Shown: positions 2,411 to 63,940 of the stretch, piece by piece
Numbering within the stretch: position 1 is the first letter of the stretch
Layout: every line of letters starts with the position of its first letter
Origin: Hydnum rufescens UP504
Taxonomy: Eukaryota > Basidiomycota > Agaricomycetes > Cantharellales > Hydnaceae
Direction: 5' to 3'
Length of the DNA stretch: 64,000 nt
Assembly: GCA_014904985.1 (NCBI GenBank)
Contig: MU128912.1
Span: 33,368-97,367 of the forward strand
Notes under the pieces: generated by a model
What the model was told of the DNA's origin: nothing
The model's input: the letters and a program-made list of their open reading frames with translations, nothing else
Database searches by the model: none
Translations under genes and position numbers: made by a program

Positions 2411-2425
2411 CACTGCCTAACTGGC

Positions 2426-36680: not shown

Positions 36681-38325
36681 TCACTCTGCTCTTATCTCCC
36701 GCTCCCTTCTTTGTTCCCAATATGTCTCATCTCGCTCCTGTTCTCCATCCTCGCTCCACCGTTCTCGTCCTCCTGCCCATTCTCGTCCTCGGCCTCCGTT
36801 CTCATCCCTGCTCCGCCTACTCTCCCGTCTCGCACACCGTTCCGTCTCTACACCCAATTCTCCCCGCGATATCGCACCGCTCCCCCCGCCGAAATTGCAC
36901 CACTCCCAAAGATACACACCGCAGCCCTCCGATATCCGCACCCGCTCCACAATATCGCAACCCCACGCATCCCCCGCCGATATCGATTCTCGCTCTCGAG
37001 CCTCTGTTCGATCCTGCTCCTCGGACCGCATCACACCCACCGCTCCCGTCTCGTCTCCCATTTCCTGAAATTGGACTCAGAACTCATTCCCTCAAGTCCC
37101 GTATGCGGACCTCCGCGATACGGTACAAACAGGAACCGTCACCACGGCGGGGGGTCAATCCTTTTTTCACACCTTCACCGGGTCGCGCGTCCAGAATGTA
37201 TTGGTGGGACCAACCCAGCGGCTTCACTTCTGTGGGCGTTATGGGCGCTCGATGCGTTGTAGAGAGGGAGGAAGCAGACATTGGTGAGAATTCTGCCGTA
37301 CTTTCACGTGAGGGAGCGAGTTCTCACACAGCGCGCACGGGGACATACTCCAGCCGCAAGGCTGGCTCTTTCGCGGCAATCGGGGTTTCAAGGTCATGGT
37401 GGTTATGTGTGCGTCCTGGCTGGCCAGGGTCACGGATCTCTGGGCCAGCTGCAGCTTAGTGGGTCCACCGTAATGTCTTGGTGCCTCAGCAACCAGGTGG
37501 CAGCACCAGGGACACATACGACGCGCTTTTAATTGCGCTGTTTTGCTCAACTGCCTTAGTGGACCGCCCCCTAAGTTCTGATGCCATCAGCGCCACAGCG
37601 GCGGTGTCGCAGAGGAGGAGATCACCTCCATACTCCACCAGATGGGGAACCGTAAATGGGCATCATCATCTCTGGGCCTGATATACAAGGCTCACAACAC
37701 TGAACGTATGGGCTGCTCTGTAACCAAACACAGTGACATTGCAGCCTCGCATGGAAGCGCAAGAAGGGCAAGGTTTGATTCAGCTTCCTATAAAGAGCCA
37801 GCCACCACCACGATGAAAACATGAAGGTGACTTGTGGAGATGGGCCCGCAACCTCGTGCGGGCCGAGGTTCCACGACAATGTCCACGATCGATGCTGTCA
37901 CCATGGCCGTCCTAGCATACAACTGGGTTGCAGGGATTTAGAATATATCGATCAGGTATAATGCCTCATGGCTCTGCAGCCAGCAGGAACTGGCAACAAT
38001 CTTTTGGGCAACTAGCACCTCCCTTTGATTAAGGACAAAGATTATAGGTCTCCGATACCAGGGAGTACTTGTCTCCAACTATGACGCAGTATCCGCCAAA
38101 TCGTTGGCCCGTTAATACCTAGGGGACCTGAGCGCGCTGCGCGGGGTCGCTGGCAGCTGCTTAACGTCGCCTCCAGTCGTCGAATTTGACACTCGCGTGG
38201 TTGGTGGGCCCGGCTCACCCCAATTGCCCATACCAAACTGTTGATCTTCCCATCTTCATCGAATTGGAGATGATGACTGCTGCCCTAAAGCATCGCATGA
38301 TGAGTGTTGGGTTCGTGACAATGAT

Positions 38326-42658: not shown

Positions 42659-42707
42659 TGGCCCTCATGGGTGATTTCAGCAACCTGGGTCAGCACAAAA
42701 TGGTAAT

Positions 42708-43415
<708 letters not shown>

Positions 43416-43776
43416 CGTTAGATACAACAAGCTTGCATTTAAATAGTCCAACTAGATGTTTTTAGGTGGGGGCCCCTGGGGCCTCCAGGGGTGATTTTGG
43501 ACCCTCAGACAAGGGGCCCCAGGGGCCCCTGGCTCTGAACTTAGAAAATGACTGGGGCCCCCAGAGGCCTGTGTGAGACTTCACACATCAAACCAAGCTC
43601 CAATGTATAGATCTCAACCAGGGCACTCTCCCACACCACTGTAGTATTATTCTTACATACCCCTCTGGGGTGGTGTGTTTTGTTTATAATCATTTATTTA
43701 GTATTGTTATTATTATTATTATACATATCCTCCCCTGACTCCCAGCCCATCTCTGGCATGATTTTCTGGAGGGGAT

Positions 43777-44090
43777 CTAGAACAACAAATAATAATACAT
43801 TAGTAAAAAGAAAACAAGGGGCCAAAAGAGCAGCAGAAGCTGCTTTTTTGGCCCCTTGTATGTCCTGTAATTAAAAACTTACCAGGTGCTTTGCCCATCA
43901 TCATGTCAGTTGCAGGTGTTTGAGGGCTAGGCCCTCAGGCATGGTTGTCAGCAGCTGTGCCTCCATATTTCATGTGGGGTTTTCACACAGGGAGGGAGAA
44001 GGCACCTAGATTGGTAAATAATACATTAATAAATAAAAAAATGGAGCAGTGCCAAAAGAGCAACTTCTGCTGCTCTTTTGGCACCATCAT
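43777..44090 (-). repeat. A1 left-arm intron-like hairpin modules (first two)
   Basis: Minus strand: module 43777-43882 (donor GTAAGT, acceptor TTCTAG side AGATC) with stem-loop at 43817-43856. The next starts at 44006-44007, has its stem-loop at 44049-44084 (GTGCCAAAAGAGCA...TGCTCTTTTGGCAC), and is interrupted by the LTR element; its donor is found at 60551-60552. Confidence 0.65.
44086..44090 (+). repeat. Target-site duplication ATCAT, left of LTR element
   Basis: ATCAT precedes TGTTAG at 44091; an identical ATCAT follows CTAACA at 60525-60529. Confidence 0.85.
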
Positions 44091-44577
44091 TGTTAGTGGT
44101 GTCTGGAGTCCCTTAGGCCACTTGGCAAACTCACAGGCAGAGTCATAGCTCTTGCCTCCCCTTTTCTCTTTCTTTTCTCTTTCATCCTTATTCAAACCCA
44201 GTGGAAAGCTTCTCCACTGGAGTTTGGTGCTGCCCTGCCTTATAGTTAGATTTGTCTCTTATTACATAATCAGTCTAGTGATAGCCAGCCATGGCAGAGT
44301 CTGAAATGTATCTTTTCCACCATCATCATCTGTCCATCTCGCAGAGTTGCAGACTTACAGATTATGCACTACACACTGTGCGACCCCAGTCTTAATGACT
44401 AAGCCCACCTATTTTGCCCTTGTGGGCATAGAGACTCTTTCCCTCCAAGAGTTACTAACTTGTCGGGCTATACAAAATGGCCATAGTCCTACAGACTGGA
44501 CTAATCCCTTGGACCCAGAACCTCCACCACCTTCCAGTTCCTCCCAATTCCTTAGTTCAGATATGACCAAACTAACA
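44091..44577 (+). repeat. 5' LTR
   Basis: TGTTAG...CTAACA, 487 bp, differs from the 3' LTR at about 14 positions by eye, almost all C/T or G/A. Confidence 0.9.
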
Positions 44578-46394
44578 CTGGTGGAGTGTGTAAGAACTCC
44601 ATTGGCAGGTCCCTACAGGACTGCCCATGGTTCATACTTGGCACCCTCTTCCTCATCCTGCCACCCAGATGCAGATATCCATGATTCGAACGTTTTCCAG
44701 AGCACCTCTAAGTCCTTGATGACTCAACCTCCAATGTCCTCATCCACTTATGGGAATCAGGTGCCTAGCCCCCTGCCTTGCAGGGTGGATACCTCAAGAA
44801 GGGTGGCTACTCCCCTAAAAAAATATGTGGAGTCCATGAGGCCTGAGCCTACTGGCACCACATCTCGATTATGCGAGACTATCCATACTTCACTTGAATG
44901 AGGCAACAAATATAGTCCAACCCGGGCCATGAAGATTGTCTGCACCTGGCTCGACTGGATACTTTATGACCTAGACACAAACTCCACTCATTTCCTCAAC
45001 TGGGTTGTACACGACTCTCATGCAGGGTCCGTTTGCTACAGTTGGACCCAGTGTTGGCACATGCTATCTGGCAGTGCAGACTCATTCTAGAGGAAGCCAT
45101 ACAGGGAACCTCCTTGTTCCATGGAGCTACTACTAGTAATAACTACAGGCCCAGACCATGCAATCTTGAGAGGTCTGACCTTATAACTGGATTCCCCACC
45201 TTGGATCAACTCCAGCTTATGGTCTCCCAGGCAAAATGTCACCTTCGGGATGCCTCGAATATATTGGCCTTCCATCTAAAGGAACCAGCCTCAGCTCAAG
45301 GGAACTATGCTGCCATCAAAGGAATCCACGGTCCTCTAGGTATACCTCAGGACACAGACTCTGGACTAGCATGACTGGTAATGAAGGAAGCCCCAGCCTT
45401 ACATTGTTGCAGAGCCAACCTCCTGGACGTCATTCCTGGTACCAATGGGATCGACCAGAGACTGACTCTGGGATGGGACACTAATTGGACTCCTGAAACA
45501 CTCATATGGCATGAGGCCTCCCCTTGCTGACTGTCCATCAAACTCCAAGAGTCCAGTCTGAAGACCAAGGGTGCCCCAAATCTTGGCACAGACCTGTCCC
45601 AGATTTCGAATTGCACGGATGACTGGACCATGGTTCAGGGTTGTCCTAATACTCATAAGATCGAACCTAAGCATACCATAGGACCCAGATCTAGCATAGG
45701 ACCCATCACTCAGGATGTCACAGTGGTGTTGCCGAAAAATATTGGAATTCCTGTGTTCAAGCTCATTCACAGTTTAGGACTAAAACCAATGTCCGAACCA
45801 CCTAGACCTTTACAGGAATTGTCATGGTCTGATTCATTATCAATAAGGTCGTCCCCAGAACATTCAGACATACGAGGCATCGTGTATTACAGCAAGACTT
45901 ATAGAGTCACAAACCCTGGGTCAGGGATGAAGAACAAGCTTCCCTGTAATGTGTGTCAAGGCCTGGAACTGGAAACCACAGGGGAAGGCCCAATAGTCAA
46001 AGGGAGAACCCTATACAGAGAAAGGATTCACATACCCACACTCGATGGAGAAGCAGATGCTAAAGGGGAAGACTCCGAGCCCGAAATGAGTGGAATGGCC
46101 AGGCTCAAACCCATGGGTCATTGGAATGATGTGGCACTGCCACTTCCACAAGGGGACTTGATCCAATGAAAGGGGCCCCTGCCTTTGAGCCTCACGAGCA
46201 CTTGAAAAGGCTACTTCAAGGTTACCGGAAGGTGGTTGGACTCGACCATCTTTCATCAATGATTCCTAGATGTCTACCTTGTGGCCGGCATTGAATACTG
46301 TATCTCATGTTGCATATGGGGACCACTCAGCATTTTTGTGTATGGACTTAGCCAGCTTATCGCATGAGAACTCACCGATGTCCCAAACAAGTAT
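44578..46394 (+). other. LTR-element interior, left of A2
   Basis: No domain recognised. Open plus-strand frames exist, e.g. 45630-46169. The stretch 45930-46300 is related to 56880-57180 (shared GTGGCACTGCCAC/ATGGCGCTGCCAC and ATTC-TGGATACCTGCC-type wording), so the interior contains diverged internal repeats. Confidence 0.5.
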
Positions 46395-46402
46395 GCTATG
46401 TG
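46395..46402 (+). repeat. 8-bp target-site duplication GCTATGTG, left of A2
   Basis: Identical GCTATGTG at 52574-52581 immediately after the right end of A2. An 8-bp duplication is typical of hAT, P and KDZ-type elements. Confidence 0.9.
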
Positions 46403-46781
46403 CAACCCAGTCAGCCACAAATGTACATCTAGTTAGATACAATGAGCCTTGCATTTAAATAGTCTAACTAGATGTTTTTAGGCGGGGGCCCCTGGGGCCG
46501 GCTAACATGATTTGCATGATTCAGGCAGGGGCCCCAGGGGCCCCTGCCTCTCACCTTAGACTGGGACTTAGAGATTCTCAGACAACAGTGGACTACACCT
46601 GGTGTGATATTATACATATGCTCCCTGGGGTCAGCAGGGTTTCACTCAGCAGTCATGTTGTGTTTTCATTGACTGGTTTATTTATTTATTTATTCAAAAA
46701 TTCACAAACATACCACACCTGCTTGGGCAGGCATGTGGTACTGTCCATAAAAAAATTAAAAATTAACAAAAGAAAACACTA

Positions 46782-48385
46782 CAGTGACCCACAAAACTGT
46801 TGCAATGTTTGCCACTTTTGACCTTCTTTGGTTATTCCTCCCCAGTCAGGCCTTCAAAAAATTTGGAAAAATATGTCCAAGATATGTATGCTTCTTGTCT
46901 ACATATGTGCCAAATTTCATGGCAATCCATTAACATTTGACAGAGATATGCCCTCAACAAGTCACTTATGTCATTGCAACAGTTTTGTGGCTGACCTTTC
47001 AGATCAGAGAAACATGACATTACTGTCATGTGACATTGTTTATACCCAAAGGTACAAACACAGCCAAATAAATAAACATCGGAAAAGCATAAATACCAGC
47101 AGTCCCAAGGCTATATGCCCCCCAATCAACCATGCGTGCTTTATCAAATGCACAACTTGACAATGTCCTTCATCTCATTGACTCCAAGCACTCTGCCCAC
47201 AAAATCTCCTCCATTACTGGTCTCCACACTTCTACTATCACCCGTGTCTGGTCCAAACATCGCCCCCATGTTTCCAAGTCCTCTGGTGGTTGTCCATCAA
47301 AGCTTTCCCCCACTGATGTCCGCCATGCCATCCATCTTATCCACACTGGGAAGGCTACCACTGCCACCCAAGTTGCCCATTCCCTCCAATCCATCACCAA
47401 CCAGTCACTCTCCAATGAAACAGTCCGCCGCCATCTGAAGAGTGCTGGTTTAAAGGCTGTGGTGAAGAAGAAACGTCCCCTGCTCTCCCAGCGCCACAAG
47501 CGTGAGAGACTGGACTTTGCCCTAAGCCATAAGGACTGGACTGTGGATGACTGGAAGCATGTTGTGTGGTCTGATGAGACCAAAATTAATCGCCTGGGCT
47601 CTGATGGGCGAAAATGGGTGTGGAAAAAGGCTGGGGAGGGCCTCTCTGATCGTCTGGTGGAAGGGACTCTGAAGTTTGGTGGTGGTTCCTTGATGATGTG
47701 GGGGTGTATGACATGGGAGGGGCCTTGATATGCATGCAAGATTGATGGCAAGATGGATGCCAACCTCTACTGCCAAATTCTGGAGGATGAACTCCAAGGA
47801 TCCCTCGAATTTTACAACAAATCACCTGGCGATGTGGTTTTCCAGCAGGACAATGACCCCAAACACACCAGCAAAATGGCCCAAGCCTGGTTCAAAGACC
47901 ATGGTTTCAATGTCATGAAGTGGCCTGCCCAGTCCCCAGACCTCAATCCAATTGAACACCTCTGGCATCACATCAAAACAAAGCTTGGAGGATATGAAGA
48001 ACCCCCCAAAGGCATCCATGAGCTATGGGAGTGAGTAGAGGCAGAGTGGGAGAAGATTGAAGCAGGGGTGTGTCAAAATTGATAGAAAGTATGCCTAGGA
48101 GGGTGGAAGCAGTGTGGAAGGCAAAGGGGGGTACACAAAATACTGAACTGTAATGATTTGTGTCACAATTTCATGTGCCACAAAACCGTTGCAATGATAT
48201 AGGTGGCTTGTTAAGGGCATATCTCTGTCAAATATTGATGGATTGCTGTGAAATTTGGCACATGTGTAGCCAAGAAGCATATACATCTTGAACATATTTT
48301 TTCAAATTTTTAAATGGCTGGTTGGGGAGGTATAAACAAAGAGAGTCAAAAGTGGCAAACATTGCAACGGTTTTGTGGGTCACTG
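46782..48385 (+). mobile_element. Tc1/mariner transposon (DD34E), TA target
   Basis: Starts CAGTGACCCACAAAACTGTT and ends in its inverse, flanked by TA at 46780-46781 and 48386-48387. Terminal regions of about 210 bp are inverted repeats. Each is bounded inside and outside by the same 19-mer in opposite orientation (46789-46807 and 46972-46990 on the left; 48178-48196 and 48360-48378 on the right). Contains a broken transposase. Confidence 0.95.
47132..48150 (+). pseudogene. Tc1/mariner transposase, broken
   Basis: ATG at 47132. An N-terminal helix-turn-helix (ISSITGLHTSTITRVWSKHR) is followed by a second one (LSNETVRRHLKSAGLKAVVK). The catalytic DDE domain has VVWSDETKIN (first Asp), [14 protein letters not shown] (second Asp) and [11 protein letters not shown] (Glu, DD34E spacing). 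It normally cuts and pastes the element at TA sites. Defects: TGA after WEGP at 47726-47728, TGA after HELWE at 48032-48034, and loss of one A near 48077 that shifts MPRRVEAVWKAKGGYTKY out of frame. All catalytic residues are otherwise present, so inactivation is recent or partly sequencing error. Confidence 0.9.
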
Positions 48386-50090
48386 TATCTAACACACCCA
48401 CTTGGGTGGGTGTGTGGTACCGGGGACGTGCATTACTTATATTTTACAGAGCCACACCCGCTATCGCAGGAGTGGGGTTCCTATGGTTTGGCGTCACTTC
48501 ATTTCGTCGTTTGGTGTCCTGTTCATGGATCCTGCTTTGCGGGCGAGTTATCATTCAGGGGGGGGAGGCTCATTCTATGGGTCTTCATTTGTTGCTAGCC
48601 TAGAATAATAGATCATTAGTTTAAAAAATTAAAACAGGCGCAAAAAGAGCAGCAGTGCTGCTCTTTTTGCACCGTTGGGGGTGCACTTACATTATATAAA
48701 ACCACACCTGCCGCAGCGGGTGTGGTACATGATTTCGCCGATCGTCGTGTTCAGGGGGCGGGCACTCAAGGCCTGTGGGGCTGTGCATTAAATGGTATAC
48801 TGGGGGGGGCTCATCCGTGTCCTCATCGGGTGAGTTTTCATGTAGGGAATGGACCTAGAACAACAAATAATAATATATTAGTAAAAAAAGAAAACAAAGG
48901 TGCCAAAAGAGCAGCTTCTGCTGCTCTTTTGGCACCGGTGGGATTAAGACGTACCTAATATTTACCACACACCCGCTTTGGCAGGTGTGTGGTACGCAGT
49001 TCCATCGATCGTCGTTTCAGGGGGCGGCTTGGGTGGCTGCGCGTATTGGGGGCTCATCTGTGTGTTCGTTCGTCAGGTGGTTTTCACAGAGGAAGAAACC
49101 TAGAACAACAAAAATAATACATTAGTAAAAAAAAAAGAAAACAGATGTGCCAAAAGAGCAGCTTCTGCTGCTCTTTTGGCACCGGTACGATTAGACATAC
49201 CTAATATTACCACACACCTGCCGAAGCGGGTGTGTGGTACATGCGTTCGTCAATCGTCATTGTGGGGGGCGGGCACTCCGGGCTTGGGTGGTTGTGGGTA
49301 CTGGGGGCTCGTCCGTGTGCTCGTCGGGTGGTTGTCACAGAGGGAAGGGACCTAGAAGAGCAAGTATAATATATTAGTAACAAAAAGAGAACAGAGGTGC
49401 CAAAAGAGCAGCTTCTGCTGCTCTTTTGGCACTGTTGTATGTCTCGCAATGGAGAACTTACCAAGTATCAGCACACCTGCCGCAGTGGGTGTGTGGTACT
49501 GTATATCAACCGTCGATGTGTTGTGGGTGTTCGGGTCCTGGGTTCTTGGATCAGGGTGGCGGGTGGCTGCGCATGTCCATTTTTTGTTTGCTGTGTTCTT
49601 GTCGGGTGGGGTTTCATGCATCTAGGGGGAGGCCTAGAATAATGAATAGTACATCAGTCCAGAAAAAAAAAGCAGTGCCCAAAGAGCAGCTACTGCTGCT
49701 CTTTGGGCACCATTGTACATACTGGGAGAAACTTACCAGTTGTTACCACACATCCGCCTCGGCGGATGTGTGGTCCTATACTTAGTTGGTTGTCGTGCAG
49801 GTTCGGGGTTGGGGTGGCTGCGCATGGGCCCGTATTTCACCGGGGTCTTGTCGGTGCATTCGTTGGATCGGGGTTTTACAAAGGGAAAAAACCTAGAATA
49901 ATGAGTGATGTCAGTTAAAAAAATTAACAGCAGCAACGCCAAAAGAGCAGCTAGTGCTGCTCCTTTGGTGTCGTGGTACACACCATAAAGAAAAGAACTC
50001 ACCTAATAGTGCCACACACCCGCCCTGGCGGGTGTGTGGCACCATTCTGCTTGCTTCGGGCGCCTCGATGTTGAGTACAATCTGAGCTAT
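48386..50090 (-). repeat. A2 left-arm array of intron-like hairpin modules
   Basis: Six modules on the minus strand: 48600-48690, 48855-48954, 49100-49200, 49352-49461, 49634-49736 and 49893-50002 (91-110 bp). Each runs from GTA(A/C/T)GT or GTGAGT through a stem-loop of the type GCCAAAAGAGCAGC...GCTGCTCTTTTGGC, an A-rich or T-rich stretch with an ACTAAT-like branch site, to TTCTAG or a close variant. Between them lie 145-175 bp segments, each with a second stem-loop of the type ACCACACACCTGC...GCAGGTGTGTGGT. No open frame continues across modules. Confidence 0.75.
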
Positions 50091-50720
50091 TCAACGCTGG
50101 GACTTTCCGGGCTCGAAAGAGCACCCAATTAGGGGCAGTACCAACCCCATATGGATAGATAATAAATACCTAGATCAAAAATAAATAATAAGTAGTAGAT
50201 ATCTGTCTAAAACAGGTGAAGAAATAAGTGATAGTCTATTGAATTGCACTAAGGCACCATGTGTAAAGAAGAATTGGGGAACTTTCACGCACTATAATTG
50301 GCCCAAATTTCAGTATCTGGGTGGTATGTATATATATATTATGGGTGATGAAATGAATTGGATGATTGCACCAATTTTCAGTTTCTTGCGCCTTCAATTT
50401 CCTGAATAGGAAATTGAAGGTGCGAGAAACTGAAAATTGGCGCAATCGTCCAATTCGTTTCATCACCCATAATATATATATACATACCACCCAGATACTG
50501 AAATTTGGGCCAATTATAGTGTGTGAAAGTTCCCCAATTCTTCTTTACACATGGTGCCTTAGTGCAATTCAATAGACTATCACTTATTTCTTCACCTGTT
50601 TTAGACAGATATCTACTACTTATTATTTATTTTTGATCTAGGTATTTATTATCTATCCATATGGGGTTGGTACTGCCCCTAATTGGGCGCTCTTTCAAGC
50701 CTGGAAAGTCCCGGCGTTGA
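50091..50720. repeat. Central 630-bp palindrome of A2
   Basis: Inverted arms of about 315 bp around a centre at 50405/50406 (CCTGAATAGG). Few mismatches, including AT-rich parts, so an RNA crossing it would fold into one long hairpin. Modules on both sides point away from it. Confidence 0.95.
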
Positions 50721-52408
50721 GTGGTTTGTTTTGATGCTTACTTAATTCACAATCATTCGTATATAGGACTCAACCACAGGGACCCGAGGAACTAGAAGAG
50801 GACCACACCCCCCGCTGCCACGGGTGTGTGGTCATAGGTGAGTACCTCTCCACTATGTACAGCCATGCAAAAAGGGCTGCCAAGGCTACCCTTTTTGCAC
50901 ATCTTTAACACTTTAACTAACATTCAGTAATATTTTCATTCTAGGTATAAGGTTGTGCACCCTGCATACGATGATACAAAACCCACCCGCAAATGAATGC
51001 GGGCCGAAATGGGTCCAATACACCGCATACACGCGCAGCCCCCAAGGTCACGCGACGACAGATAAAGGACCACACACCTGCTTCAGCAGGTGTGTGGTCC
51101 TACTAGGTGAGTGTTCAACCAGAAACCTACAGTAGCACCGAAAGAGCAGCACTAGCTGCTCTTTTGGTGCTGCTTCTCTTTGGTTTTTCTAACAGATCAT
51201 ATTATTTGTTATTCTAGGCTTCCCCCCTGCACAAAAATCCGCCCAGCGAGAACGTGGATGAAGCCTCCCCGTAATACTGACGTACGCAGCCACCGAAGAT
51301 CCCCAGGACCCTACGCAACACCCGATTAGGCATGAACACCGGAACGAACGAATGGCAACACGCACACAAAGCCAGAGTTCAGCACAACCTCATTCTCAAC
51401 TCCTTTATCGGAGACACAGACCGAGACCGAGCCTGATACAGATCACCAGAGAATGGCTGGGCAGCAGACGGAACCCAGCCCGCACTGTCTGCGCCACCGC
51501 CGCCCAGCTACAGATTCAGAAGGTCCAAACTGCTCTGCTGCTGCTCAACGAGGGGTTCGTCCTCCACGTAAAGCATGCTTTGAAGACAGTATACGTAAGG
51601 TAAGTCTTTTTTCTTGATTTTTTATTCTCGTGGCGCAAAAAGAGCAGCATGAGCTGCTCTTTTTGCACTACATTAATCTAACTAATTTATTATTTAGTTC
51701 TCTAGATCTTGGACCAGAGCCCCCACAAACAAATACCGATGCAATGCCCCCGTAACCCCCCCTTATCGATGCCCGCCCGAACGACGGGTGCCCATACGAA
51801 CTGCCGCATGTATGAGGCAGAGTACAGGGCTCCAGTACCCCACACCAGTGCAGCAGGTGTGGGGTGCTACAAGGTAAGTTCTTTTTTATTTTTATTTCTA
51901 TTCTTGTGGCGCAAAAGGAAGCACATGCTGCTCTTTTGTGCTGCATTACTGTTGTACTAACATTTCATTAATTATTTCTCTAGATCCTGAACCAGAACCC
52001 ATGCGAACCACCAAGTACGAACCCACAGAATGATAGCCACAAACGATAACTGCAAACGAGCCCCCACAAACGAAAACTGACCCCCTCAAGGGAGTGCCCC
52101 AATGGAACCGGCCCTGACCGCACTTGAACCATGCAAACCCCTGACTACAGACCCGCCAAACGACACCCCGGGAACGAAAACTGGGAACGGAACCACACAC
52201 AACTGCATGAATGAAAACCGCGAAGGCCGCATGAACAAAAACTCCCAACGACACCCCCTTGAGGGATCACCCAAATGGAACCCAGGCCCTGACTGGGGTG
52301 AATTCCAGGTAAGTGTTTTTTTCTTTAGCTACAATTGCACAAGAAGAGCAGCCTCTGGCTGCTCTTCTTGGGCACAGGGTGAGCCCCACTGGGCAAGCCT
52401 ACAGATGT
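50721..52408 (+). repeat. A2 right-arm array of intron-like hairpin modules
   Basis: Plus-strand modules 50838-50944, 51107-51217, 51600-51705 and 51874-51983 (107, 111, 106 and 110 bp). Each is GTGAGT/GTAAGT ... stem-loop ... CTAAC or ACTAA ... CTAG. A fifth donor at 52309 is followed by a stem-loop (AAGAAGAGCAGCC...GGCTGCTCTTCTT) and a possible AG at 52377. Intervening segments of 162-382 bp carry CACACACCTGC/GCAGGTGTGTG-type hairpins just before the donors in three cases. Continuous coding across joins was not found. Confidence 0.75.
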
Positions 52409-52573
52409 ATATACTAATATAATACTAATAATAATAATAATAATAAATATATAAATTAATAATGCATAATCTGGCAGGGGCCCCAGGGCCCCTGGTAAAA
52501 ACATCTAGTTAGATATAATAAATGCAAGGCTCATTATATCTAATATGATGTGGAAAAGTGGCTGACCAGCCTG
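52409..52573. repeat. A2 right terminus
   Basis: TAA/AAT microsatellite (52415-52462), GGGGCCCC run, then the inverted terminal sequence ending GACCAGCCTG. The same arrangement ends A1 at 63750-63940. Confidence 0.8.
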
Positions 52574-52581
52574 GCTATGTG
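52574..52581 (+). repeat. 8-bp target-site duplication GCTATGTG, right of A2
   Basis: Partner of 46395-46402. Confidence 0.9.
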
Positions 52582-55348
52582 AGTAAACCTGTTTCAAGGG
52601 AACATGCCCCAGATTCTAATTTGGGTGCATGCCCAGAATACAACAGCCCGAGGACCTAAGGCTTGGAGAACTGTACCTTTGCTATCGAAGAATACTAGGG
52701 TTCCCATGTCCAATCCAGGTGGAGGGCTAGAGCCAAAACCTACAGCAAAGAGGGCCATATTTGTAAGGGAAAACTCATTTAAAGGGACAACCTGTGTGTC
52801 CGTTTTCAGTGAGGATGTAATCCTAGAAGAATACGATCAGAAAGCTTTGATGCGGCTGGATTTGGCAATAGGAACTGGACGCGCCTCCTACAAATGTTTT
52901 GACCTATAGACCTTACAGAACATGGAATGGCTCATAGTCAATTTATCACCTAATCTGCACAGCTACATGGCAAGATGTCCCTATTGGAACAGGCATACCT
53001 TAGTGTACTGCCTTCTCGACCCCCAAGTTTACTTGAACCTTATGTGGAATTCCATGGAATCCGTCCTGGCCCTTATTTCTGAAATCGTCGAAGTCACCAC
53101 GGATTTGTCAAGGACTGTTCCTTCCGAAAGCACAGGGACTTTACCATGGGTCAACTTCCAAATGGATGCAAACACCATATCCATAAATGACCACCTTCGG
53201 CCCTATTCCAATGGCCCTGAGCCTTTGCAGACACAAGAAGATGTACTGAATGGGTCTAGCTGCAGAAGGCTGCATCAAGACCATTATCAACAACTGAATT
53301 GGGGTGACATTGCACAATCAGACCAACAAGCTCAGATTGAGGTTTCGAATTCACATGCGAGCCGTTGCCAACTGGGCATTGTTATGACTCAGAATGATGG
53401 ACTTACACCACGAAGCTATCATCCTCAAGCAAATCGGAATGACAAGCTCACGGATAGTACGAATGCTCAAAGTACAAACAACAAGGGTCCCTTCCACATG
53501 TGTAAGATCCGACCTGGGTGAGAGTATGGGTCTGGAAGGGGCACAGAGGACATTGAGACTAATGATGAACCCCAAGATCTGCTGTCGTGTGCCTACCAGT
53601 ATCCAAGGATCTGTAATCCTGGTGTAAACATGGGCCTGAATACGAAGTCTTGTCTGCAAGCCCCTTCCTCATCCTTAGTATTGTTCGCCTGTTGAGATCA
53701 AGGAGGCCAGAGCCAAAACACCATGGTGTCAATGTTCCCAAGCAATGAAGCCGGGGACAACAGAGCAAAACTCCTTATTGCAGTACAATTCAGAACGACT
53801 GCAGGACTCAGATGAAAAACCCCAGAGGTAGTCAAGCCATCCAGATCCTGTGCAAAGACTATTAAGCAAACGGCTTTGGGAAATGACTCTAAATCCAACG
53901 AATGATGTCTTGGTTGGGTCAGCTTCCATCAACGATTCCCGGACACCTGCTTTGTTGTCAGCATCTACAAGATGATCCAGAATAGAGGAATTATACTCTC
54001 CGACTTCAAGAACATTGATACAGGCCTCCTTCGCGACAGGACCCGTATTTGGGAAGACAATATAGTCGATCTCATCTTCGAGACCATCATTGAGTACCAT
54101 ATTCCACACTGTGCATATGAACCATTTGACACCATCATGTCTGGATTTAATGAGCTTAGGCTCACTAGTGCCTTCAATGAGCACGAGCTTGAGTTCATTG
54201 ACAGCATGTTTGATACTGATGTTGCAGAACCTCCTAAGGATATGCCTAAACCTTCTGGATCCGTATCCCGACCAGACCAGCCAGTAATAGGAATGGCGAA
54301 GTACTGGCATTCCATCAAAATCACGAGCGGGGTTGAAAAGAACTGATCTCACAAACTTCTACAAAATGCCATTCGAACCTTAGAAAGGCTAGCCTCCACC
54401 AACATGCCCAAAGGGAGCATGGATATGAAGAATCTCTACTGTGTAGCCTTGCGGAGCCTTGTACTCCTATGCAGATCAACAGAGTCAGCCGGAGCCTGTA
54501 CAACTACTGAAATGACCACAGAAATCTTATTTGCGAATGGTATGGAGCCTCAACGTGACGTGACCGGGCAGATTGGAGCTCCTATGACTCACAGAATAGA
54601 GGGATTCTTGCGACCTGAACATTCCGTTGCAACCGTGAGCACTGCCGCAACCAGAAGGAATGAGTACATGTCACGAAATGGTCCCTCAAGCTCTAACATT
54701 GTCATGAATGAGGAAGAGGAACGAAACCACTCACAGGAATCCCAGTTCCATTACAAAATAGTGTTGTGGAGCTGTCCTCAAGTCAACCCTGGCTACATTA
54801 AGCTCTCTTGAGCCTACATAGATGTACATGAGATAACCTGCCAATGAACTCAAACTAAGGTCTGGAAGTCCCTACTATCATTAACAAGTAAAACAGGGTG
54901 GCCCGGTGTTGGAGGGATAAATCCCTACACCATAGAATCCTCATCCTCAGCCCATTTTCCCTACGAACAAATCAATTATATGTCACCGCGCTCATTTAAT
55001 TATATCGCCATTCGTTTATTCATGAAATCAATTGGATTCCTACCCTTTCCAACCCATAATATCGCCTCATTCCTTTACCATGTCCACCAGTCAATTTATT
55101 GACTATCCGTCAGACTTCAACAGTCCTCATCAAAAAGGGGCAGTTTATGCCCTACTTCAAGTCCATTTTCTTTGGACAAGGCAATTCAACTTGCCATCTT
55201 TCTTCAAGACTGGGTGACTTGCCTGCTCTTCCAAGTCATCCTACTGCCTTAAGGGCGACAGATTGTGATTATGTAACGACGCGGACCGGGCCTAGTTCCA
55301 ATTCTGGACTCGCGGATTCATCACATGATCCAGATAGGGGCTGCACTA

Positions 55349-55462
55349 CTCTGAAGGAGTATTTTTCGAATTTCTCCGTCAGATTTGATCGGATCGACTC
55401 AAAACGACCGCGCCCAGAAAGATACGAATCGTACCTATCGAACGGTACCAAACACGAAACGA
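55349..55462 (+). repeat. Direct repeat copy 1 (partner 55510-55624)
   Basis: Shares CTCTGAAGGAGTATTTTTCG, GGATCGACTC and CGAACGGTACCAA with 55510-55624. CpG-rich compared with the surrounding interior, suggesting a younger insertion or different origin for about 54900-56250. Confidence 0.8.
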
Positions 55463-55509
55463 ACGGATCAAAAATGCGGTCCCTGTAACAATATCTTGCC
55501 ATGATTCAT

Positions 55510-55624
55510 ACTCTGAAGGAGTATTTTTCGAATTTCTCCATCAGTTTTGATTGGATCGACTCGAAACGACCATGCCCTGAAAGCTGTTGAAAATGCGCAT
55601 CGAACGGTACCAAGGGCAAAACGA
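55510..55624 (+). repeat. Direct repeat copy 2 (partner 55349-55462)
   Basis: Same blocks in the same order. A weaker third echo (ATCTCCATCAGTTTTGAAT) lies at about 55850. Confidence 0.75.
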
Positions 55625-57139
55625 GTGGACGCGAACTCCATTTTTCACAAGACAACTCCCTCCCCATGACTCCCCCTTTGCTCCACCATTCAAAATAGCG
55701 AATTACTTCCGGCCCTCTTATGTCCGATGGAGAAGACCCTCAGGGCGACCTATTCCACTTTTCCTTAAGGGAACTTGTCCAGGTTTGAAGGAGGAATAGC
55801 ATGTAATGTGTCAATCTCCCCTTTTATCTTGAAATTGGAATATCTCCATCAGTTTTGAATATTTTAACTTGATTTCTTTTTCTCTGTGTGTCTCTTAAGT
55901 CCGACTTTTTCACTTTCTATTGAGTCAAAGTCTGGATTGTATATTAGGTGCAGTTAGCACACAAATTCATTAGTTCTCCCCCTTCCTCCAGTTTGAAGCT
56001 CCTTGAACAGCTGCTGGTCCCTGGGTGATTTCTCACTACAAAAAGCGAATTCTAACTACACTTTGACTAAGGTCTCAAGAAGAGATTCTTAGGGTGTGGT
56101 AATTTGACTGAAAGACACATTCTCACTTAATTGCTTGGGCTTTGTTGGCTCACTGCAATTTCCCCTGTTCAAAAGACCTTCCCCCACTCAGACCTGAACA
56201 TCTGGATTAGATCTGTGATCCCCACTTTCATCCCCGGCTCAACATCATGGACAGTAGTTGGATTGGTTTAATAACCATCCTGCTTACACCGGCGCTGCCA
56301 TCTTCATGAATGAAATCCCAGAGCCTGGATACAACACTGTTGAGCCCAGAAAACCCAATACCATTGATGAAAGGGTTGTAAGAACCAAAGTCGGGAGTTA
56401 TGGTGGAGCGTGGCCACCTCTACAAGTGAACTTACTCCAGGGCCCCAATGACTATGAGGTCAGATCTGAATGGAGGACTGGGCTTGGGTCCAACTTAGGG
56501 TCCATTGTCTGAACCACCCCTAAATCTTCTTGTCATTGGATTAAAGACCCACGATCAGACAAAATTACAGGGCTTCCGTATGACACAACAAGTCTAGGTG
56601 GTCATGAGCAAAGCACTAGACCCTGTTCACTGAGCTCGAGCTTTGTCACTAACTCAGAAGGCAAACAAGCTCGAAAACTTGGCCAGCAAGTAGCTACTAT
56701 GTACCTGTGGGTACAAACAAGTTCACCCCTGTGGAACAAAACCCTGAACTCCAGACCATTTGGATATCTGCGACAGGGGGGTCGAGACTCGAGAAGCTAT
56801 GATACAATAGCAGTGAGATGACAGGATTACCAGCTGCAGACTGGGGCTTCCAAGGGTCAAGTCATTGAACTCGAGTCACCTGTGAATCCCGCCCAAGTTG
56901 AGTGTTCCATTGAAACCGAATGGAAGAGCAATACATGCAGTATAGAGTCTGTGGACCAAGACCCTGAGACTGTGAATACTCCTGCCTTGAAGCCGAGATT
57001 TCATATGAAGATAAGGCCCTACATAACCCTTGTCAAGAACAGCCAAGGCTCCTCGCAGCCTAAGCATCTTGTTGCAATTGATGACATGGCGCTGCCACCT
57101 CCGCAAACAGACGTGTTCCAATGAATCAGATGTCTTGGG

Positions 57140-58297
57140 TTGGTGACCTTCTGTCGACAATTCATGGATACCTGCCTTGCTGTTGATTCCTGCAAGATGA
57201 TCCTGAGGAAAAAGATTACACTCTCTGACCTTGAGAGTATGTATACGAACCTCTCTTGTGGCACAACCTGGATTTTGGAAAACGACATCACTGGCCTCAT
57301 CTCCAAGACCGTCATTAATGTCCTTATCATTAGAAAGGGATTGGGCCCAACGAAATGGGTTCCCATTACCGAACCTCATGAGTACTTGAGGCACAGTAGA
57401 CAGAAGCTTGTCTTGAGCCAGACGACAATCCCTGGAGGCAGTTCCCAGACCCCATACAATGTCTATCAGGCGCATGGTCTTAGGAAACCATGTCCAATTC
57501 TTCCGAAGATGCCTCGGTTTGACTCTTGCCCATTGATGATTCTTGAATACCTCCCTTATCGCTTGGATAAAGTGGTTGCTATTGAACCCAAGCCAAATGG
57601 TCCTGACACACCCTCCACTGAGGAAAATAAGAAAGAACACATGAAACCATTATTGAGTGCCTCACATTGTCGTATTGATGTCCCTGATGAGCTTGGGCTT
57701 GAGCTCCTCATTGGTGGCATGTCTGATACTGATGTTGAAGACTGGACAAAGTCCGCAGAAGATTGGGAGTATAAAATGAACAAGGTCACCCAGTGGTCTC
57801 AGTGGGTGGTTCGAAACTGGCCCACCAGGTATGAATCTGGGCTGTGGCAACCTGCCACCGAGGCACCGCGAAGTCTTCGGTTGCCAATGTATGACCGGAT
57901 CTGTGTTAAAGGATTGTCAGAGCTCCATCAAAGGATTCAAATGGAAATTCTGTCATGCTGCTATTGGACAGCTCTGATTAGAAGGGAAGGATATGATGAT
58001 GCTCTGATCCAAAGCTCACTGTGGCAATTCCCTCTGAACTACAAAATAATGCAGTGGTGCTACCTTCAATCCAATACCAATGATACCAAGCTCTCACAGT
58101 TGCACAAGACCCAGTCAAGTATCGTCACAGTCAGGGGGGATGAGTACCCATCATGGTACTATGACAATGCACAGCCTCCACAGTTGAATGAAGCCACAGT
58201 GTCTCTGACAAAATTGCATCAAGAGCCAGCAAACAACCAAAGGTTTCTGTACCATAGGAATGCACAAGGGGTCGAACGAGGCCAACTATCCAATTGA
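57140..58297 (+). CDS. 385-codon open frame in LTR element, unknown
   Basis: The longest open frame of the LTR interior. Its length is unlikely by chance at this composition, so it was probably coding once. No gag zinc knuckle, protease DTG, reverse-transcriptase YxDD or integrase motif is visible. Its first half is related to the 53972-54346 frame. Starts only near an ATG-like or alternative codon; no clear promoter. Could be a gag-like remnant or an unrelated captured gene. The minus strand 56876-57640 is also open, which lowers confidence. Confidence 0.3.
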   Translation: MVTFCRQFMDTCLAVDSCKMILRKKITLSDLESMYTNLSCGTTWILENDITGLISKTVINVLIIRKGLGPTKWVPITEPHEYLRHSRQKLVLSQTTIPGGSSQTPYNVYQAHGLRKPCPILPKMPRFDSCPLMILEYLPYRLDKVVAIEPKPNGPDTPSTEENKKEHMKPLLSASHCRIDVPDELGLELLIGGMSDTDVEDWTKSAEDWEYKMNKVTQWSQWVVRNWPTRYESGLWQPATEAPRSLRLPMYDRICVKGLSELHQRIQMEILSCCYWTALIRREGYDDALIQSSLWQFPLNYKIMQWCYLQSNTNDTKLSQLHKTQSSIVTVRGDEYPSWYYDNAQPPQLNEATVSLTKLHQEPANNQRFLYHRNAQGVERGQLSN

Positions 58298-60037
58298 TTT
58301 GCTGTGGTGGAACTTGATATAAGAAGGGGATTCCAACATGTTTGTTACTCTACCATGATCGTGGACAATGGTGCAAAGGGGGATTCATCTTATGAGGTCC
58401 CACAAGGCTTTGTAATTTCCCCTAGTACAGATTCAATTTCCATCTTGCACTGCACACTCGTGATTAGGCATAGGGGCTACAGTCCACCCCACGGAACTAC
58501 GACAAACTTGGGACTTGAAGTTCTCCATTGTCAGGCTAAAAAACCACAGACAGGAGCCAAACGGTATTCCAAGGTGATCATAGTCATTATCACAGAATCA
58601 GTAGCTACACAAAAGGTCACCTTGAACTCTTGCCCGACCCCCACATCTTTAGTCATACTTAGTAGACTAGGGATGTGTCATACCTTCAACTCCCAGTCTC
58701 TCCTATGACTGCCTGTAAACAAATGTAGTCTCATAGACCAAAGCAATGAAGTTAGTGCCATTGACTATGAAACAATGTTGCAGGGTTGTCGCCAGTCCGA
58801 CCTCAACAGTCTCAGGATCTCACGAAGACACAGGGGTGAACCAAAAATGTCTAGCCAGTGGGCCTGGACCAAAGTTTTGAACTCACCCAAAAAACAGAGT
58901 GACAGTACACAGAAACCCAAGTCAACTGCGATGTCCGTATGAGCTAGGGATCCCACCACAAATGCAGGTTTCCTTACAATGGAAAGGAACGAGTACTCAC
59001 CACAAAGCCATTGTTCATGAAGGAAACAGAGTGACAACATGGTGCAGCCACCCCCCTGGGTGGGCCTACTCCAAAGGGACGTGCTTGGGATCTTGAACTT
59101 GTCCCCAAAAGGTGTTGGAACACCTATACCCAAATCGGGACAAGATTCAGTGTTAGAATCTATGACCAAAGGGGCTGTGTTCACAGGGGAAAACCCATCT
59201 AACAAAATAGTTGGTACACTCATTCTATGTAGAAACATGAACCCAAAAGAATGTGAGCAAAGGACACCAACATGGCCAGATTCATCAATAGGGATAGGCC
59301 CCTCCACCTACAGATGTTGGGACACATGGGCGCCATGCAGTATTGCACCCCTCATGATCAATTGGTCACCTAGCCTGTGTGACTACATTGCATCCCATCC
59401 ATCCATAAATGAAAAGGATGGTCATGTTAGCATACGATGCCAAGCCAAACGTAACAGTCTACAAATGTACTGCCTTTTGGATCCCTGGACTCATCTACAT
59501 CTCTGGCAGAATCCCATGAGATCCATCCTTAGTCTCATCGAGGGGTTCCAAGTACCCAAAAGGGGGAACTTGTCCAAGCCATCCAGGACGCACAGGAATG
59601 GTGATGGAAGATGTACCCCACATTCAAATGAACCAGCATCGCACAGTACTCACTTATCAATATCCACCCCACTGGATTGGAATGAAGGGACTGGTGTCCT
59701 ACCATATAGAGGTTCGACTTCACCCAAGGCACCACACTGGATGCAGGGAAGATCTGTCAATACGTTGGGCATATGGAGAATTGTGGTCATGGACATCACT
59801 GCAAGTTTAAATCATCTGCAGCTCATGGAAGCCACGACCAGAACCCAAACCCATCCAAGCAAGCAAACTATGCCTGGGCCCTGGTTACCAGAGTCACAAC
59901 AAGACTCTACTATGAAGGTTGAAACAATGCCACCAAAGCACACATTGCCACACATACGGATTATGATGTGTGTTATATGTTGTAGAACCGGGAGATACTA
60001 GGGAACACCCCTTCATGGCCAAAGGGACTGGGGGCTG
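58298..60037 (+). other. LTR-element interior, last part, with polypurine tract
   Basis: No recognised domain; an open frame runs through about 59039-60001. It ends with purine-rich AAAGGGACTGGGGG just upstream of the LTR, a plausible polypurine tract. Confidence 0.45.
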
Positions 60038-60524
60038 TGTTAGTGGTGTCTGGAGTCCCTTAGGCCACTTGGCAAACTCACAGGCAGAGTCATAGCTCTT
60101 GCCTCCCCTTTTCTCTTTCTTTTCTCTTTCATCCTTACTCAAACCCAGTGGAAAGCTTCTCCACTGGAGTTTGGTGCTGCCCTGCCTTATAGTTAGATTC
60201 ATCTCTTATTACATAATCAGTCTAGTGATAGCCAGCCATGGCAGAGTCCGAAATGTATCTTTTCCACCACCATCATCTGTCTGTCTCACAGAGTTGTGGA
60301 CTTACAGATTATGCACTACACACTGTGTGACCCCAGTCTTAATGACTAAGCCCACCTATTTTGCCCTTGTGGGCATAGAGACTCTTTCCCTCCAAGAGTT
60401 ACTAACTTGTCGGGCTATACGAAATGGCCATAGTCCTACAGACTGGACTAATCCCTTGGACCCAGAACCTCCACCACCTTCCGGTTCCTCCCAATTCCTT
60501 AGTTCAGATATGACCGAACTAACA
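60038..60524 (+). repeat. 3' LTR
   Basis: 487 bp, TGTTAG...CTAACA, followed by ATCAT at 60525-60529. Confidence 0.9.
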
Positions 60525-61922
60525 ATCATATGTCCTGTAATTGAGAACTTACCAGGTATTACCACACACCTGCCACAGTGGGTGTGTGGTACCATATTTC
60601 ATCCTTCATCATGTAGGTCACAGGTGTTCAGGCATTGGGGTTGCGGGTGGCTGTGCACATCCATTTTTGGTCTTGGACCTTGGCTGTGTTCTTGTTGGGT
60701 GGGGTTTCATGCATTGAGGGGAAACCTAGAATAATCAATAATATGTTAGTTAAAAGAAAAAAAAACAAAAACAGAAGCAGCACCCAAAGAGCTGCTGCTG
60801 CTGCTCTTTGGGCAAGTAGGCATACCTGTATTACCACACACCCACTTTGGTGGGTGTGTTGTACATGATTTTGTCAATTGCCATGTTTGGGGGGTGGGCA
60901 TGCAGAGCTTGGGTGGCTGTGCCATACTGGGGGCTTGTCCATATCTTCACCAGGTGGGTTTCACATAGGGAAGGAACCTGGAATGAATAATAATGAATTA
61001 GTTTTAAAAAAAAAAACAGAGGTGCCAAAAGAGCAGCTTCTGCTGCTCTTTTGGCACCATTGGAGATTAGACATACCTAATAACCACACACCTGCTTTGG
61101 TGGGTGTGTGGTACATAGTTTCATTGATCATCATGTTCAGGGGTGGGCATGTGGTGCTTGGGTGGCTCTGCCATACTGGGGGCTTGTCTGCATCCTCATT
61201 GGATGGGTTTTCACATGGGGATGAGTCCTAGAACAAATAATAATGCATTGGTAAAAAAAAAAAGAAAACAGAGGTGCAAAAAGAGCAGCTTCTGCTGCTC
61301 TTTTGGCACCAAGACCTCATGTCACCACACACCCACCAAAGTGGGTGTGTGGTGCTGTATTTGATTCATTATTGTACTGGTTTCTGGTAGTTGAGTGTTG
61401 AGGTCTTGTGTGGCTGCACGCGCACCCATATTTTGCCTTGGCTGTCTGTGCTTTCTTCGCATGGGGATTCCTGGAGGGAGACCTACAAATAATGAATATG
61501 TTAGTAAAGAAAAAATTCCAACAAAGCCAAAAGAGCAGTGGGTACTGCTCTTTTGGTGTCATCATATGCCCCTTGATACAATAACTCACCTAGTATTGCC
61601 ACACACCTGCTTTGGTGGGTGTGTGGTGCAGTGTATGCTTCATCATACATTGCAAAAAATCAAGGGTTTGGGGGGCTGCATGCTCCCATATTTTGGTCTG
61701 GCCCTTGTCTGTGCATTTGTGGGGTGGGGCATTGAGCCATGGAGGTCACTAGAATGACAGTACATTAGTAAAGAAAAAAAAATCGAAGGGAATGCGAAAA
61801 GAGCAGCTGGTGCTGCTCTTTTGGCATCATCCTATACTCTGTAACAAGGACACTCACCTAATAGTGCCACACACCCACCAGGGCAAGTGTGTGGCACCAT
61901 AATCATCTCACCTTTGAGAACC
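60525..61922 (-). repeat. A1 left-arm intron-like hairpin modules (remaining five)
   Basis: Minus-strand modules follow the end of the LTR-interrupted one (donor at 60551-60552): 60726-60825, 60978-61076, about 61228-61317, about 61483-61590 and about 61749-61859. Each keeps a GCCAAAAGAGCAGC-type stem-loop; splice-like ends are kept in most (one donor reads GTGACA). Spacers keep ACACACC...GGTGTGT hairpins. Confidence 0.7.
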
Positions 61923-62536
61923 CAACACTGGCAATTGCCAGTTTTGAAAAAGCACCCAAGGTACAAGCAGTACAAGGGTCATCTAGAGACAATAGATACC
62001 TACACATAGAATAGTACTAAATAATAAATATTTGTCTACTAAAAGTGAGGAAGGAAGGGATTGTGAGTTATATTTCACCAAGGCACTATATGGCAACAAA
62101 GAACAGTGAATTGGGGGACTTCCCTGCATCAGAATTGGCCCATATTTTGATATGTTGGTGGCATGTATGTGTAGCACATGGCCAGTGAAGAAAATTGGAT
62201 GATCAGGCCATTTTGAAATTTCTCACACAAGGGTGAGAAATTTTAAAATGGCCTGATCATCCAATTTTCTTCACTGACCATGTGCTACACATACATGCCA
62301 CCAACATATCAAAATATGGGCCAATTCTGATGCAGGGAAGTCCCCAATTTACTGTTCTTTGTTGCCATATAGTGCCTTGGTGAAATATAACTCACAATCC
62401 CTTCCTTCCTCACTTTTAGTAGACAAATATTTATTATTTAGTACTATTCTATGTGTAGGTATCTATTGTCTCTAGATGACCCTTGTACTGCTTGTACCTT
62501 GGGTGCTTTTTCAAAACTGGCAATTGCCAGCATTGA
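61923..62536. repeat. Central ~614-bp palindrome of A1
   Basis: Arms of about 305 bp around 62229/62230 (TCTCACACAAGGGTGAGA). The internal sequence is related to but clearly diverged from the A2 palindrome (shared GGCCCA(A/T)ATTT, GCACCATG/GCACTATA, TAGATACC), while each keeps its own arms matched. Confidence 0.95.
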
Positions 62537-63749: not shown

Positions 63750-63940
63750 ATGTATATACTAATATAGTAATAATAATAATAAATAAATAAATAATGCATC
63801 ATTTGGTGGGGCCCCTGGGCTCATTGGGGGGGCCCCTTAATTGTATTGCAGGGGCCCCCTGGTGTAAACATCTAGTTAGATATAATAAATGCAAGGCTCA
63901 TTATATCTAATATGATGTGGAAAAGTGGCTGACCAGCCTG
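63750..63940. repeat. A1 right terminus
   Basis: TAA microsatellite, GGGGCCCC runs, then the inverted terminal block ending GACCAGCCTG, nearly identical to the A2 right end. Confidence 0.8.

Follow-up and report, generated by a model that had tools for sequence, protein, structure and literature searches.

A non-autonomous DNA transposon of Hydnum rufescens carrying divergent rows of hairpin-bearing introns that are likely spliced

The window analysed here, a stretch of 64,000 nucleotides from Hydnum rufescens UP504 (contig MU128912.1), harbors at positions 46403-52573 an element, denoted A2, which judging by its sequence is a non-autonomous DNA transposon. Within A2 a unit consisting of hairpin exon, donor, hairpin, branch site and acceptor is repeated in tandem in two arms facing away from a central palindrome. 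The element family likely makes spliced non-coding RNA, and this RNA may help each copy to escape silencing. We infer a divergent transcription unit devoid of a protein gene, the introns of which are spliced and selected copy by copy. The outward, hairpin-bearing and protein-free plan put forward in the first-pass annotation fits the sequence layout of the window copy as well as that of the relatives read.

A2 is delimited by 16-bp inverted ends, the left one at 46403-46418 (plus strand, CAACCCAGTCAGCCAC) having a start point common to most homologous left ends and the right one located at 52558-52573 (minus strand, GTGGCTGACCAGCCTG), and is flanked by an 8-bp target-site duplication (GCTATGTG at 46395-46402 and 52574-52581). 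A subterminal inverted repeat relates 46410-46490 (plus) to 52486-52566 (minus) with 78% identity. Short inverted ends starting with CA(G/A) (CAACCCAGTCAGCCAC / CAGGCTGGTCAGCCAC) and 8-bp target duplications, found in A2 (GCTATGTG) and in C266 (GAAAACCC), are both characters of the hAT superfamily. In locus L050 a relative is inserted in a hAT gene with 7-8 bp of target duplicated, and the uninterrupted target is found elsewhere; no target duplication was seen in C28, C35b and A1, where it was looked for. No hAT transposase is present within A2, and the enzyme would be borrowed from an autonomous element, possibly of hAT type. In L051 a hAT C-terminal domain and an A2-like left end are separated by 380 bp; it is probably not such a partner and looks like a separate insertion, because the same hAT sequence stands without an A2-like end in L050. 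KDZ transposases, with 154 matches scored genome-wide, were discarded, none being tied to A2-type ends in the loci read. The end-sharing loci L052-L054 are further unit rows, and no transposase was recognised by eye among the listed frames of L052 and L053. Positions 46780-48387 are occupied by an unrelated Tc1/mariner copy with transposase remains nested inside A2, so that the earlier term protein-less is valid for the element proper and not for this insertion.

The intron-like units comprise six on the minus strand, at 50002-49893 (110 nt), 49736-49634 (103 nt), 49461-49352 (110 nt), 49200-49100 (101 nt, donor GTATGT), 48954-48855 (100 nt, donor GTACGT) and 48690-48600 (91 nt), and four on the plus strand, at 50838-50944 (107 nt), 51107-51217 (111 nt), 51600-51705 (106 nt) and 51874-51983 (110 nt). 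All ten had been predicted in the first-pass annotation and are present with the lengths of 91-111 nt given there; its count of at least four on the plus strand is probably to be raised by a fifth, longer intron at 52309-52477 (169 nt), where a GT donor is followed by a stem, ACTAATA and CAG. All 18 aligned right ends have the GT donor of this candidate (16 of them as GTAAGT), followed by the stem; ACTAATA is present in 16 and CAG in 17. We dismissed the alternative that 52309 is an orphan donor spliced to sequence in the host flanks, since downstream of it, and still inside the element, there are a branch-like site and CAG. Sets of donor, branch and acceptor spanning 85-117 nt occur eight times in A2; the 50 dinucleotide shuffles contain 0.22 on average and never more than 2, and in them the unit profile yields a best match of E=0.52. 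The stem-loop claimed for each intron is borne out by RNA folding: nine of the ten introns fold better than every one of 200 dinucleotide shuffles and the tenth, at 51874, is equalled by a single one (z from -2.9 to -7.9 across the ten).

A hairpin differing from the intron type is found at the end of the exon ahead of nine of the ten introns, namely at 50015-50040, 49749-49774, 49472-49497, 49213-49238, 48968-48993 and 48702-48725 before minus-strand introns 1 to 6, and at 50802-50831, 51069-51098 and 51837-51865 before plus-strand introns 1, 2 and 4. Two further exon-type hairpins lie on the minus strand in the left terminal exon (48393-48418 and 46714-46739), the latter being followed on that strand by GTATGT and AATAAA repeats. 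Ahead of the intron at 51600 the exon hairpin is absent and a captured host-gene fragment of 226 bp takes its place (51375-51600, plus strand, in sense orientation, 94% to C156, locus L055 839-1064); the different stem-loop ascribed earlier to the exon spacers is missing there and stands before the other nine introns. A2 and five sister copies share the fragment, and capture was encountered in one subfamily only. No exon hairpin was found in viral contigs.

The lengths of the internal exons are confined to a narrow range (quartiles 153-174 nt, 142 exons), as might be expected if neighbouring introns paired via their self-complementary stems and back-splicing released circular RNAs of about 165-nt hairpin exons. 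Since the intron stems are nearly self-complementary they are also complementary to those of their neighbours, and the arms of neighbouring introns, 211-216 nt apart, are 76-89% complementary. The local hairpin should nevertheless form first and no sequence feature demands circles; we consider this explanation improbable.

The internal exons show no coding signal. Their lengths modulo 3 are distributed as 58/33/51, and 81 of the 142 lack an open sense frame versus 97.8 expected from shuffles; they are somewhat more open than shuffles, and their antisense is more open still (45 without an open frame). This slight openness, together with one frame in the plus arm which is open across two introns, would agree with a decayed many-intron protein-coding gene that has lost its frame. 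Part of this open plus-arm frame, though, is the captured host fragment, no protein relative of the longest frame in the unit rows was found, and splice sites no longer under selection would not outlive the frame. Given the exon phases, the stops and the missing protein relatives, a coding origin was rejected and is regarded as very improbable indeed.

An Rfam scan of A2 gave 12 matches at an E-value of at most 0.5, all of them below cut-off. The best is mir-3914 on the palindrome (55.7 bits, cut-off 97), SNORA31 reaches 27.9 bits (cut-off 40) at 52260-52386, and mir-4766 weakly matches three intron stems, each site being counted once (25 bits, cut-off 72, E 0.15). Among these 12 there is no group I or group II self-splicing family with its catalytic core, and no snoRNA family exceeds the Rfam cut-off as it should in a snoRNA host gene.

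Comparison of copies depicts a strong conservation of the splice signals. The fetched copies provide 211 introns with both borders, of which 205 start with GT and 210 end with AG; donor, CTRAY and acceptor are jointly present in 200, the signals typical of introners and spliceosomal introns, and CTRAY occurs in 206 of 212 introns with 35.6 expected by shuffling. When changes are counted along a tree comprising 189 distinct introns, the two donor positions changed 3 and 2 times, the branch A once and the two acceptor positions 0 times and once (7 changes over five columns), as against a mean per column of 17.1 between donor and stem, 10.5 between stem and branch and 14.4 between branch and acceptor, averaged over the columns listed. 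The branch A was counted on a fresh alignment, the first profile alignment having carried the branch box in two registers; these counts refer to units picked by resemblance to A2, 14 of 235 short units were dropped from the first alignment, and tandem units are not independent of each other. AG shows no depletion in the interval from the branch site to the acceptor (observed in 57 of 204, shuffled 49.8). The first-pass annotation had named free variation of the GT, CTAAC and AG positions in related copies as the observation that would speak against it, and this expectation fails because donor, branch and acceptor are strongly conserved and rank among the slowest positions. We infer that selection maintains the splice signals.

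The stems are as slow as the splice positions, and both form the slowest parts of the unit. The intron stem is nearly constant in its letters and not in its pairing alone, unlike the variable loop and flanks; both intron and exon stems covary, i.e. pairing is kept despite changes on both sides. For the inner intron stem 20 origins of GU are counted and 6 of AC, as expected of an RNA on the unit's own strand. This asymmetry is weak in the exon stem (19 versus 12 outside CpG pairs, 57 versus 60 in CpG pairs) and absent from the outer intron stem (41 versus 39), so that these two may or may not act as RNA. Together with the symmetrical filling of both arms by units, and with subterminal repeat arrays being common in hAT and CACTA elements, the little wobble asymmetry of these two stems might point to units acting as DNA, as cruciform or protein-binding arrays recognised by a transposase or chromatin factor, the splice-like motifs being part of the binding site. 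Donor, branch and acceptor at spliceosomal spacings and among the slowest columns, the excess of GU in the inner stem and the composition of the units (38% T in introns, 16% in exons) argue against such arrays, to which we assign little probability.

The two rows of units diverge from a palindrome of about 630 bp, the arms of which (50091-50403 and 50408-50720) are 97% identical and represent the predicted outward promoters of a minus-strand and a plus-strand transcript, respectively; each would drive one outward transcript per side. A GGCCAAT block is present in eight of ten diverse palindrome arms, and its lack in the other two counts against the promoter reading. All 158 of 158 units around 21 palindromic centres are oriented outward. 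In diverged elements the palindrome arms are homogenised within the element, those of A1 being 98.3% identical with about 74% to the best other arm. A1 is a second, diverged copy in the window, one part of which (43417-44087, minus strand) lies to the left of an LTR element, while the rest (60529-63940) consists of minus units, a palindrome (61920-62538) and plus units up to the right end at 63940.

Exact stem patterns amount to 3,507 of the intron type and 5,663 of the exon type in 63 Mb, with no match for the reversed patterns; the repeated units are very numerous and probably distributed over hundreds of element copies, and one transposon carries up to eight introns per arm. Three isolated-looking unit matches were examined as candidate introners in host genes and rejected, all three lying in unit rows and none in a gene. 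Exon-joined copies were not found among the matches listed in two genome searches with 40 candidates scored in each; the listed matches end at exon borders, in contrast to a processed, retrotransposed element. Their lack is as expected for DNA transposition, yet provides no genomic proof of splicing.

From these observations we propose that A2 and its relatives are non-autonomous transposons without a recognisable protein gene, whose divergent intron rows would be transcribed outward and spliced, intron removal protecting the copy in cis; we give this reading about an even chance. The intron hairpin would loop out about 36-45 nt, and an intron of 106 nt would thereby behave as a short fungal intron. 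On a unit that resists splicing the spliceosome would stall while the RNA is still being made, channelling that copy into RNA-dependent silencing, and mobility would be left to copies with sound introns. Such a route resembles SCANR in Cryptococcus (PMC5851062), the stalled-spliceosome RNAi of poorly spliced transposon RNA, which is likewise a pathway letting intron quality in transposon RNA decide on silencing; it is a Cryptococcus system and for the A2-type family and its host an analogy. RdRP and Piwi domains are found in the genome. The stem columns, as slow as the splice columns, are more than looping-out alone needs and count against the proposal.

Multi-copy snoRNA genes and mirtrons release small structured RNAs from host transcripts, and the hairpins of A2 could correspondingly be the product, set free from the introns (or exons) of a long host RNA, with the host or the source of the transposase as their target in trans. 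The fixed stem letters beside variable loop and flanks, the likeness to imprinted snoRNA arrays, in which non-coding exons and introns likewise recur as a unit and each intron holds a structured RNA, and the faint mir-4766 matches favour this explanation. On the other hand all snoRNA and microRNA matches stay below cut-off, and with about 13-18 bp the stems would be short substrates for Dicer. Moreover, splice sites are retained in single units of single copies, and selection against a defect limited to a single unit in a single copy works best through an effect in cis and hardly through a trans-acting RNA. We hold trans-acting hairpins to be unlikely, and rank the cis role of splicing above the small-RNA precursors, circular or lariat products and self-regulation suggested earlier. 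A farther-reaching form of the cis reading, to which we lean somewhat less than evenly, would see in the family a spliceosome-dependent selfish DNA with thousands of introns per genome in non-coding exons and a bidirectional, self-homogenising palindromic promoter, each intron being selected as its removal licenses the copy against RNA silencing.

If spliced, the rows, with 3,507 exact stem cores of the intron type and further inexact ones, would constitute a large intron set outside protein genes, and the spliceosome would act as a filter through which mobile DNA has to pass. They would also offer a natural experiment in which the constraint on each splice base is readable across very many repeated units, and would connect the hairpins of introns with transposon RNAi and with the origin of introns, being possible donors of hairpin introns to genes. 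Gene finders may call such rows as genes, which should be kept in mind in annotation.

No element of this plan was found described in the open-access literature searched. With non-autonomous hAT-type elements A2 shares the CA-starting inverted ends and the 8-bp target duplication, but A2-type ends are linked to no hAT transposase in the loci read, and among other non-autonomous elements none is known to us with rows of conserved introns or with a palindromic core kept homogeneous. In Pack-type elements such as Pack-MULEs a host-gene fragment is enclosed by inverted ends, as in A2, whereas among A2-type elements capture was seen in one subfamily only. The tandem snoRNA host genes of the Prader-Willi region are likewise built of recurring non-coding exons and introns, every intron holding a structured RNA where the A2-type rows have a hairpin; those genes, however, form one chromosomal locus and contain snoRNAs, while the A2-type rows are mobile, divergent, present in many copies and without a snoRNA family at cut-off. 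Introners are repeated spliceosomal introns which bear hairpins in fungi, and for many of them an origin from non-autonomous DNA transposons, recognisable by inverted ends and duplicated target sites, has been traced (PMC9860276, PMC9024468). A2-type elements also repeat hairpin introns with spliceosomal signals and transposon ends; in contrast to an introner as described there, which is one intron dropped into a host gene, an A2-type transposon carries up to eight introns per arm in non-coding exons of its own.

The element A2 (46403-52573; ends CAACCCAGTCAGCCAC and GTGGCTGACCAGCCTG) consists of two rows of units running outward from a 630-bp palindrome (50091-50720, arms 97% identical), each unit comprising an exon hairpin, a donor, an intron hairpin, a branch site (branch box CTRAY) and an acceptor. 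Six introns lie on the minus strand left of the palindrome and four on the plus strand right of it, each of 91-111 nt; all ten harbor a stem, and for nine of them a second, different stem closes the upstream exon. The left arm also contains a nested Tc1/mariner copy (46780-48387) that has a TA duplication and whose transposase is broken. Eight donor-branch-acceptor sets of 85-117 nt occur in A2, versus a mean of 0.22 and a maximum of 2 in 50 dinucleotide shuffles, and on 50 such shuffles the unit profile gave no match below E=0.52. Superposition of 18 right ends depicts a GT donor in all 18 (GTAAGT in 16), followed by a stem, ACTAATA in 16 and CAG in 17. Judged by sequence, 52309-52477 is probably the last intron of the plus arm and is probably followed by a terminal exon within the inverted repeat, carrying AATAAA.

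Among the matches listed (40 candidates scored per search), many copies are found elsewhere in the same 63.2-Mb assembly. In the loci examined at that stage, a profile of the ten A2 introns matched at 235 separate positions, of which 221 with at least 125 columns covered were counted and 14 dropped. Of the 162 units lying within 2.6 kb of one of 21 palindromic centres, 158 face outward; since the four exceptions are right-arm units of a neighbouring element (locus C28) with its centre 2.6 kb off, the outward rule holds for 158/158. Arms carry two to eight units, some being clipped by locus ends, and three more loci found via the left-end sequence likewise contain unit rows. Genome-wide, the exact pattern of the intron-type stem has 3,507 matches and that of the exon-type stem 5,663, the reversed patterns of both types none. 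In a sample of 211 introns the exact intron pattern is present in 130 and the exact exon pattern upstream in 133, so that the real totals exceed these counts. Near the left end, several consecutive exon-type hairpins without an intervening intron are seen in L052 (451-637), L053 (476-595) and L054 (523-708), and at about 1020-1280 of L058 the exon is a short GCGT-rich tandem repeat, the adjoining units being otherwise normal.

The splice signals are highly conserved. The 211 unique introns with both borders, out of 342 profile matches including overlapping loci, show GT (205), GC (3) or AT (3) donors and AG (210) or AT (1) acceptors, and GT, CTRAY and AG are all present in 200. Among 212 distinct units, 206 have CTRAY close to the acceptor versus 35.6 in shuffles, and the T and A of this box are invariant across 45 diverse introns. 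In a fresh alignment of 189 distinct introns, parsimony counts on their tree give three and two changes for the donor G and T, none and one for the acceptor A and G, and 2 (A), 2 (C), 1 (T), 4 (R) and 1 (branch A) for the branch box, while the mean per column is 17.1 between donor and stem, 10.5 between stem and branch and 14.4 between branch and acceptor. The earlier profile alignment agrees (donor 4+2, acceptor 0+1, versus 19.6, 14.1 and 15.3). Neither the mutation rate nor gene conversion nor common descent would be expected to pick out those columns, so the splice signals appear to be kept by selection. An AG-poor zone between branch site and acceptor was not found (AG in 57/204 versus 49.8 shuffled).

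On the same 189-intron tree the stems evolve as slowly as the splice signals, most of their columns having 0-6 changes. Pairing survives two-sided changes: at intron pair 72-99, 106 of 208 cases are C-G and 87 A-T, and at exon pair 6-29, 134 of 199 are A-T and 39 C-G. Shifting one arm by 1-3 columns lowers pairing from 89-90% to 27-59%. RNAalifold finds 15 pairs in 45 introns, 10 of them with double changes. The inner intron stem shows 20 origins of GU against 6 of AC, an excess which favours RNA from the unit's own strand. The outer intron stem (GU 41, AC 39) and the exon stem (GU 19 versus AC 12 without CpG pairs, 57 versus 60 in CpG pairs) do not decide on RNA action; the symmetric CpG decay of the latter looks like methylation damage.

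The internal exons carry no coding signal. Lengths of 142 internal exons modulo 3 are distributed 58/33/51 for 0/1/2, and 81 lack an open sense frame versus 97.8 expected by shuffling and 45 in antisense; the exons are thus slightly more open than shuffles, and the wrong strand most. A protein search at E 0.001 found no relative for the longest frame of the unit rows. In the predicted spliced plus arm the longest open stretch takes in a captured host-gene piece (51375-51600, sense, 226 bp, 94% to L055 839-1064), whose source gene has a 376-aa acidic frame. In A2 and five sister copies this piece occupies the place of an exon hairpin.

An 8-bp duplication GCTATGTG flanks A2 on both sides, and copy C266, with ends close to those of A2, has GAAAACCC duplicated; at the inspected borders of C28, C35b and A1, the diverged second copy in the window, target duplication is absent. 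In L050 a unit-row element (2240-6592) interrupts a hAT transposase gene with 7-8 bp (CACCAGG) repeated, while L051 holds the uninterrupted form, there adjoining an A2-like left-end fragment. Inverted ends, 8-bp duplications and this interrupted/uninterrupted pair establish that the A2 family moves as DNA. A T-rich tandem array (42707-43415, about 700 bp, six-base period) lies between the A1 left end and its first units; an LTR-type repeat pair (44091-60524, 97%, 5-bp duplication ATCAT) sits within an intron of A1, and A2 in turn is nested between these LTRs. KDZ-type transposase gave 154 scored matches genome-wide, one of them in the window (about 20943-21512, minus), and a direct repeat of about 3.7 kb (29179-32664 and 34640-38325, 82% identity) is without link to A2.

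In diverged subfamilies, the ones in which this can be read, palindrome arms are closer to each other than to arms elsewhere (A1 98.3% versus 74%, C244 98.7% versus 89%, second centre of C28 94.6% versus 82%) and are therefore homogenised inside the element. A GGCCAAT block is present in 8 of 10 diverse arms; it may represent a CCAAT box, and the arms are predicted outward promoters.

Since conservation extends down to individual units within individual copies, an effect in cis is favoured; rival readings are that hairpin products act in trans, that circular RNA is the product or that the units serve DNA-level binding. In Cryptococcus, the stalled-spliceosome RNAi pathway SCANR converts poorly spliced transposon RNA into siRNA (PMC5851062), and RdRP and Piwi domains are found in the host genome. 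Based on these observations and the cis-type conservation, we propose that sound introns would keep the transcript of their own copy host-like and that copy mobile.

An element of this plan was not found in the mainly open-access literature searched. While transposition by inverted ends is commonplace, the payload is unusual. The cargo of Pack elements consists of gene pieces, and snoRNA arrays, unlike the A2 family, are immobile. Introners are single introns in genes, in contrast to the rows of units that form the payload of the A2 family (PMC9860276, PMC9024468).
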